Assembly: GCA_030446015.1 (NCBI GenBank)
Contig: JASUSO010000014.1
Span: 1 to 38,174 of the forward strand
DNA from: Methanobacteriota archaeon
Lineage (GTDB): Archaea; Halobacteriota; Methanomicrobia; Methanomicrobiales; Methanoculleaceae
Reading direction: 5' to 3'
Length of the DNA: 38,174 bases
This document shows positions 35,282 to 37,041 of the stretch, piece by piece. A model generated the notes under the pieces. That model saw nothing but the letters and a program-made list of their open reading frames with translations, did not search any database and was not told where the DNA came from. The position numbers and the translations under genes were made by a program. The stretch's first letter is position 1, and each line of letters begins with the position of its first letter.

Positions 35282-36133
35282 CTAAAACCATTTATCCAGT
35301 GTTTGGTTCTGGTGTTCTGGTTCGACATTCTTTGGAGGAGAGCCTTTTTTCGGAGGATAATATAGTCCTATAATTAACCACGTGGGCTGAAGCGAATGCA
35401 TACCAACGACAAAATAAAGATCTCTCTCATTTAGCATCCATGTGTAAAATTTGTCGTATAACTTTTCCCATAGGATCTGGGTGTCCCCATACTCTTGGCC
35501 CCATCTACGATACGCCTCTAACAACTCCCAATCTTCACATAAAATATCGTGGGAGCCGTTCGAGCAGGTTAAACAACCATCGGAGCATTTAAAACGATAT
35601 GCAAACGGGTATGGAATTTTCTGGATTACGGGGGTTTTAGATCCATCTATTCCTTGCCGGTATTCTTTCGGACCTGTGTAGATTTCAAGTTCCTGCCGGT
35701 TATAAAATTTTAGAACTTCCTTAGGTTTAATCAATCCAAGTGAGGTCTTGTCCTCCTTGTGTTTTTGATCTAAGTGACTTAAAGAAGGATCGACTTTATC
35801 GAGAATTAACTTGTTGCGTTTATCCCAAATTTTGCTGTTGGGAGCGCCACTCAAACTGCGATCTATAATAGTTATATCTGAACCCTCTTTAACTTTATAA
35901 CTCTCTTTTCTCCCGAGTTTTTCGGATTCTGCTTTCTGACAAGTGACCTCCACAAGATCAAACTTACGAATCTTATTGTCTCCGATATAATGTCTCGTTG
36001 AAATAGGATACAACCGGATCCAATTTCCTTCTTCAGTAATCCCGGCTGTACAGGCGACCTCACCTCGAGATCTTCGACTGTATTCAGGGTAGGTTTTTAC
36101 TATAACCCAGACACGTTTTTTCTCCCAGCTCAC
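35282..36133 (-). CDS. Probable dual-OB-domain protein with central Cys cluster
   Basis: WVIVKTYPEYSRRSRGEVACTAGITEEGNWIRLYPI, FKCSDGCLTCSNGSHDILCEDWELLEAYR, DLYFVVGMHSLQPTWLIIGLYYPP. Confidence 0.65.
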   Translation of the reverse strand: MSWEKKRVWVIVKTYPEYSRRSRGEVACTAGITEEGNWIRLYPISTRHYIGDNKIRKFDLVEVTCQKAESEKLGRKESYKVKEGSDITIIDRSLSGAPNSKIWDKRNKLILDKVDPSLSHLDQKHKEDKTSLGLIKPKEVLKFYNRQELEIYTGPKEYRQGIDGSKTPVIQKIPYPFAYRFKCSDGCLTCSNGSHDILCEDWELLEAYRRWGQEYGDTQILWEKLYDKFYTWMLNERDLYFVVGMHSLQPTWLIIGLYYPPKKGSPPKNVEPEHQNQTLDKWF

Positions 36134-37041
36134 AAGTCAGCAATCTCCCACCCCTCCTTGCGTAATCGGTCTGCAATGACTCCTCTATGGCAGTGACTGG
36201 CGTTTTTTTCAAAGCACATCAGGGCAATTTTTTCTTTACTCCCTAAAGCCTTTATTTTTTCGATCAGGTCGCCTTTATATTCCAGTTCGGAAGAATATTG
36301 TTTAAACAACTCCTGATACCCATTTTGGGTAATGTTCTGTCTTCGACTTGATTCTATTCCAAGTTCGGGGATATGAACGTACTTGATACAAAAATTCTGT
36401 AAATTCCTTGATAATGCCTCTTTTGAGTAACCATACTTTCTGCTAAATGCATTTCTCCTCACATCTACAAGTAAGGTAATGTGGTTAGCGATCAGTGTCT
36501 GGAAAAACTGATCGATGTCTCTTCCTTCGTACCCTATTGTTGTAATGCCCTTCTCTTCGGAGACTTGCTCCATTTTGGGCTTCAATTTACTGAATATTGT
36601 ATATTCCGGGAAATGGCCATAGACATAGTCGATGATATCCATATCCGTGGAATCCTGAAATTTTTGAGCATATGAAGAGATAATCTCCTGCAAAAAGAAA
36701 TCCGGTTTTGGAAATACCTTATCGACGATCTGAACGTTTTCGCCTGTTATTGAAACGCAACCCGATTTTTCGAGATTAGACAGATCTCTGTATAGTTGGA
36801 ACGAAAAGGGACCGTATTTGTATGGAATAAAATTGTATAGGCTTCGCTCTTGTGAGATCAAGAACATAAGTTTGACCAATTTCATCTTTGAAATCTTTTC
36901 ATAACGAGCAATTAGGTAAAGAATCGCTCGTTGACTTTTATTTATCATCTCCAATAAACCCCAGGTGATACGTGCAATATTAGGGTTTAGGTACGCGGGT
37001 TGAAAGTATTTGTTGTGCTCCCCCCAAAAAACATCAAGCAC
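36130..37041 (-). CDS. N-terminal winged-helix (SocA/Panacea-like) + DUF488 protein
   Basis: SQRAILYLIARYEKISKMKLVKLMFLISQE; TIGYEGRDIDQFFQTLIANHITLLVDVRRNAFSRKYGYSKEAL; IALMCFEKNASHCHRGVIADRL (DUF488). Confidence 0.85.
   Translation of the reverse strand: MLDVFWGEHNKYFQPAYLNPNIARITWGLLEMINKSQRAILYLIARYEKISKMKLVKLMFLISQERSLYNFIPYKYGPFSFQLYRDLSNLEKSGCVSITGENVQIVDKVFPKPDFFLQEIISSYAQKFQDSTDMDIIDYVYGHFPEYTIFSKLKPKMEQVSEEKGITTIGYEGRDIDQFFQTLIANHITLLVDVRRNAFSRKYGYSKEALSRNLQNFCIKYVHIPELGIESSRRQNITQNGYQELFKQYSSELEYKGDLIEKIKALGSKEKIALMCFEKNASHCHRGVIADRLRKEGWEIADL

Follow-up and report, generated by a model that had tools for sequence, protein, structure and literature searches.

The closest described counterpart of the locus analysed here is PDC-M19 (phage defence candidate, multi-gene type 19) of the PADLOC collection, one of many defence candidates known from gene neighbourhoods alone. 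PDC entries derive from a guilt-by-embedding survey (Payne et al.). Searches of the literature found no paper naming PDC-M19, no experiment on it, and no work linking DUF488 with the OB-fold or with RapZ. Pfam holds models for families of both kinds of protein, namely DUF488-N3a (PF22751) and DuOB (PF22557). Burroughs and Aravind are said to have predicted, in 2023, a role in DNA-end processing for the RapZ-C/DUF488/DUF4326 clade in conflict systems.

Three other known systems invite comparison. The Panacea-type antitoxins of DarTG and SocAB are relevant because the N-terminal domain of the DUF488 protein described below folds like DarG; in contrast to DarTG, the catalytic part of the present pair is DUF488, with no DarT family among its PADLOC matches and no macrodomain by Pfam, which reports DUF488 only. 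In enteropathogenic E. coli, DarTG2 fills the gap between hsdS and hsdR, and the island protects against phages (PMC12255303); relatives of the present pair likewise lie between type I restriction genes. CTP binding has been shown for an archaeal protein of the ParB-CTPase fold in which DUF488 is fused to HTH (PMC12704722), and such archaeal ParB-CTPase-HTH-DUF488 fusions also combine DUF488 with an N-terminal DNA-binding module, although in the present protein that module is Panacea-like and not ParB. The HIN-200 domains (IFI16, AIM2, MNDA) have the same tandem OB nucleic-acid binding layout as DuOB, but this is a fold analogy only, with no homology claimed, and the present pair has no inflammasome parts.

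The window, a 38,174-nucleotide stretch of DNA from a methanogenic archaeon, contains both PDC-M19 components side by side. The M19A profile (PDLC04505) matches the DUF488 protein at 1.1e-79 over profile positions 3-284 of 294, and the M19B profile (PDLC04508) matches the adjacent DuOB protein at 2.9e-61 over positions 2-263 of 269. Both proteins are thus covered at nearly full length, and the pair shows no difference that would exclude it from the type. Judged by these profile matches, the pair is a catalogued but experimentally unproven candidate defence system, PDC-M19, and not a new kind. A preliminary description had called the system poorly described. That is a fair wording, yet descriptions do exist, in the form of the two Pfam models and of the PADLOC name for the pair.

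The gene pair and its protein domains

The pair consists of two open reading frames on the minus strand that overlap by 4 nt at 36130-36133, in agreement with the stop/start overlap reported earlier near 36130 (Table 1). The upstream gene had been given as 36130-37041. That frame exists and would encode 303 aa, but the start is most likely the ATG at 36948, giving 272 aa, because the open reading frames of relatives begin to align at residue 32 of the 303-aa frame. The N-terminal extension to 37041 is therefore probably untranslated. Apparent breakage of the DUF488 gene in some congeners was considered and rejected, as the flagged stop codons sit upstream of the real start.

Table 1. Features of the gene pair and of the island that carries it
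Feature	Position	Strand	Basis or remark
Left copy of the perfect 20-bp direct repeat ACCCGGTGACGAGAGCCTGC	34808..34827	.	sequence comparison
Inserted AT-rich island, 2294 bp, only the pair inside	34828..37121	.	GC profile, empty-site match
Left island end, which only carriers G029 and G022 share with the window	34828..34900	.	
Non-coding; repeats dispersed in the genome, and a 24-nt inverted repeat (35034-35057 / 35126-35149)	34906..35281	.	
DuOB protein, 283 aa, PDC-M19B-like	35282..36133	-	PADLOC PDC-M19B 2.9e-61; model pLDDT 85.9
Second OB-like domain, residues 132-258	35360..35740	-	model; Foldseek
Cys/His cluster C183, C187, H195, C199 (with lineage-specific C190), possible Zn site	35537..35587	-	alignment
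First OB-like beta domain, residues 4-91	35861..36124	-	model; Foldseek to tandem-OB proteins
DUF488 protein, 272 aa, PDC-M19A-like	36130..36948	-	PADLOC PDC-M19A 1.1e-79
DUF488 domain, residues 145-262	36163..36516	-	PF04343; DUF488-N3a 6.6e-8
C245-x-E247...C253-H254-R255 motif, predicted active site	36184..36216	-	invariant in 27 relatives
N-terminal winged-helix, DarG/SocA-Panacea-like domain, residues 1-118	36595..36948	-	model; Foldseek 7yk3_B; PADLOC DarG 4.5e-5
Right copy of the repeat (20 bp), forming the end of the resident 130-aa minus-strand gene	37122..37141	.	

The preliminary description proposed a SocA/Panacea-like DNA-binding domain fused to DUF488. The DUF488 half of this proposal is certain: PF04343 matches with E values of 9.2e-30 to 1.1e-29, and the gathering scores are passed both for DUF488 (104.2 bits vs 22.2) and for DUF488-N3a (33.3 vs 27), an 'active subclade' to which 26 of 27 DUF488 relatives are assigned by Pfam. 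Besides the predicted active-site motif, the alignment of the 27 relatives has an invariant G-Y, D162 and R164. The likeness at the N-terminus is real but distant. In the predicted model (pLDDT 90) the first 118 residues form a winged-helix domain. Among PDB structures, Foldseek places this model closest to DarG from the DarTG complex of M. tuberculosis (7yk3_B; E 0.0029, probability 1.0), in keeping with the PADLOC DarG match. The Pfam SocA_Panacea gathering score is not reached by the window domain (0.088; 14.2 bits vs a cut-off of 25.7); two other proteins come out at the cut-off, with 2.5e-5 and 25.6 bits, namely L091, a relative that has the partner gene, and L058, which stands alone and belongs to the same genus. 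On these profile and model comparisons 'Panacea-like' is a fair label for the domain, while Panacea proper is not proven.

The structure prediction of the 283-aa DuOB protein bore out the OB-like ends that had been read from its sequence. The AlphaFold model contains two OB barrels with the Cys/His cluster between them, and the PDB entries that it matches best are tandem-OB proteins that bind nucleic acids: the HIN domains of MNDA, IFI16 and p202 bound to dsDNA, followed by RPA, Teb1 and telomere-end binders, TEBP among them (Foldseek). TM-scores are low (about 0.3) since the domains are packed differently. Because the scores are low, the modelled resemblance to tandem-OB proteins is one of the kind of fold and not of close kinship. 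A PDB sequence search with the family profiles of both proteins found no solved relative.

No Pfam family, DuOB PF22557 included, matches the window DuOB protein, and PF22557 is matched by only 4 of its 26 relatives (best 3.2e-4); the protein represents a divergent archaeal branch. The CxxxCxxC cluster noted earlier is literally present, as C183, C187 and C190. However, C190 is restricted to the lineage of the window, and the set conserved in archaeal relatives is C183, C187, H195 and C199. In many bacterial DuOB relatives the Cys/His set is degenerate.

The AT-rich island and its empty sites

The pair occupies an island with a GC content of 33-50% over its genes, compared with 65-75% in the flanks, and the earlier impression of a mobile-looking AT-rich island was upheld by the finding of exact insertion and of empty sites. 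The pair is present in 6 of 35 species of Methanoculleus, the genus of the window, which is a patchy distribution. In four genomes (G000, G017, G022 and G029) it lies between the same two convergent genes, as an AT-rich insert of about 2.3 kb. At least nine congeners have an empty site, in which the joined flanks and one copy of the repeat match as one uninterrupted stretch. The island thus has the direct repeats, and its relatives the empty site, that are characteristic of integrative elements; it contains the two pair frames only, with no integrase, transposase or recombinase within 34828-37121. Terminal inverted repeats were looked for by eye at the island ends and none were seen.

Two other explanations of the island were rejected. 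It is not a multi-copy transposable element, because both of its ends occur at one site only in the genus and show no such inverted repeats by eye. Nor does it come from a mis-binned bacterial contig, since the non-coding part has the genome's own dispersed repeats (63 matches of 34880-35285 within the same genome) and the insert recurs at an identical position in congeners. By eye, 34828-34900 tentatively resembles, in decayed form, the minus-strand gene at 37120-37512 at its 3' end; BLAST gave no support for such a copy.

The carriers do not form one clade on a tree of one gene only (2.1 kb), which needs 4 changes and rejects a single carrier clade (p-AU 2e-9). Even so, one insertion in an ancestor with later losses may account for the distribution. 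In G000, and likewise in G022, the two copies of the repeat are identical, but the copies of one genome differ from those of the other, a pattern that would fit either fresh insertions or gene conversion. In G022, both copies equal the empty-site sequence of its sister G025, and the two genomes share near-identical tracts, one of which is about 3 kb long and begins at the right repeat of the island. These identities show that homologous exchange with relatives acts at the island site. In a comparison of two loci, L060 (about 9776-12750) and L191, near-100% tracts form a mosaic between species that are otherwise about 87% identical, one tract starting at the right repeat; this pattern reflects recent recombination between species.

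Relatives and their genomic contexts

Adjacent DuOB and DUF488 genes are found among archaea in Methanomicrobiales, in Thermoplasmata and in a Methanomethylophilaceae genome from the rumen; in nearly all of them DUF488 is the upstream gene and overlaps DuOB. The pair is also carried by plasmids of Pseudomonas, Rhizobium, Burkholderia, Massilia, Streptomyces and Fischerella, some of the carriers being conjugative, and by temperate phages of Gordonia, where it lies near the immunity repressor and integrase. Among 29 viral contigs with DuOB loci, DUF488 adjoins DuOB in 26. Many loci of bacteria and viruses have the two genes in convergent orientation.

The preliminary description recommended a search for co-occurrence in defence islands, and four archaeal loci provide it: type I restriction genes stand next to the pair in L079, L082, L092 and L078 (gene counts for this context were taken over 110 neighbours). 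The fullest case is L079, with the order hsdR, DUF488, DuOB, hsdS, hsdM, and L092 has the same layout and gene sizes. L078 reads hsdR, DUF488, DuOB and then reaches the contig end, while L082 reads, from the contig start, DUF488, DuOB, hsdS, a TATA-binding-protein gene and hsdM. In L082 the TATA-binding-protein gene (3305-3817) is flanked by hsdS and hsdM, inside the same type I restriction operon as the pair. In the window, no hsd gene lies beside the pair, and no other gene known to act in defence adjoins it; the flanking genes encode UPF0029 and a protein with no Pfam match.

The N-terminal module of the DUF488 protein is swapped among relatives, being Panacea-like, MazE/AbrB, HTH, or ParB plus ParB-HTH, and many bacterial and viral DUF488 partners are a bare domain of about 150 aa. 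Thermoplasmata relatives carry the MazE antitoxin-type domain, and at L149 a ParB-DUF488 protein adjoins DuOB. Genus g76, from another family of the phylum, has DuOB in 23 of 31 genomes, most often as a solo copy with no DUF488. The solo genes (L134-L143 and L150) are in conserved synteny beside an aminotransferase gene. DuOB therefore does not invariably belong to a defence pair; the g76 form looks domesticated, and DuOB can thus take on a different, perhaps cellular, role.

Possible functions of the pair

A defence role is likely because the pairs of relatives sit in restriction-modification operons, on plasmids and in viruses. From these contexts and from the predicted folds we infer antiviral activity, along with substrate, chemistry and regulation, and hold with moderate confidence that the pair is a compact two-gene antiviral module of type PDC-M19 (host vs mobile element), working as a nucleic-acid sensor/modifier. 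Most likely, the tandem-OB protein would bind nucleic acid that is foreign or abnormal, namely DNA that is single-stranded, branched or free-ended, and guide the DUF488 enzyme to it. DUF488, a cysteine-dependent Rossmannoid domain, would modify or trim the nucleic acid via its invariant C-x-E...CHR residues, and the winged-helix domain would be a replaceable DNA-binding part that tethers the enzyme to DNA or controls the operon. The earlier proposal of a candidate defence or conflict module on mobile DNA is supported by the PDC-M19 profiles, the type I restriction operons, the plasmid and phage carriage, the patchiness and the exact insertion with empty sites.

The same proposal invoked neutralisation of the toxin-antitoxin type, in which DUF488 or DuOB would be toxic and the Panacea-like part would neutralise it, as in SocAB or DarTG. 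A small operon of two overlapping genes, the resemblance of the N-terminal domain to DarG and SocA, and the MazE antitoxin-type domain of the Thermoplasmata relatives would all suit this mechanism, but the Panacea-like domain is missing from most bacterial and viral pairs, to be replaced elsewhere by HTH or ParB, and where present it is fused to the presumed enzyme, with no separate antidote. The convergent arrangement in many loci is also unusual for toxin-antitoxin operons. We consider this mechanism unlikely for the pair, and as a general one it is not supported: the exchanged N-termini argue against Panacea neutralisation as the common mechanism and for a replaceable DNA-binding or regulatory part.

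The viral contigs, conjugative plasmids and Gordonia phages could instead point to a fitness or counter-defence function of mobile elements, by which phages and plasmids exclude rivals or resist host restriction, the archaeal insert being a remnant. The position that the pair takes up in archaeal chromosomes, between hsdR and hsdS, agrees better with host defence, however. It is common for phages to bring along defence genes directed at rivals, which makes the two difficult to tell apart; we regard the mobile-element function as quite improbable. A cellular role in nucleic-acid repair or processing, unevenly carried, would account for the syntenic solo DuOB of most g76 genomes and for the resemblance of the OB folds to RPA and POT1, but is very doubtful given the patchy occurrence of the pair, its exact empty sites and its carriage by plasmids and phages.

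Within the preferred reading of an antiviral module, a more specific version is conceivable, although we think it rather unlikely: DuOB would be a prokaryotic HIN-like tandem-OB sensor that activates DNA-end modification of a new chemistry by DUF488, with an exchangeable N-module, in a cassette that, in Methanoculleus, enters and leaves one chromosomal site exactly with no recombinase of its own. For PDC-M19, the restriction context, the exchangeable DNA-binding modules, the HIN/RPA-like fold and the empty sites provide independent support, and the comparisons single out C245 and the CHR motif of DUF488 and the Cys/His cluster of DuOB. If the antiviral reading is true, archaeal immunity would gain a nucleic-acid end-processing enzyme.

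Rfam and tandem-repeat scans of the window were empty. Apart from the island, a Cdc6/Orc1-like AAA+ gene on the minus strand (20997-22280; identified by sequence reading) borders an AT-rich intergenic stretch, in which a 25-nt inverted repeat (22459-22483 / 23291-23315) resembles origin-recognition boxes. The segment 20997-23380 is a probable replication origin.
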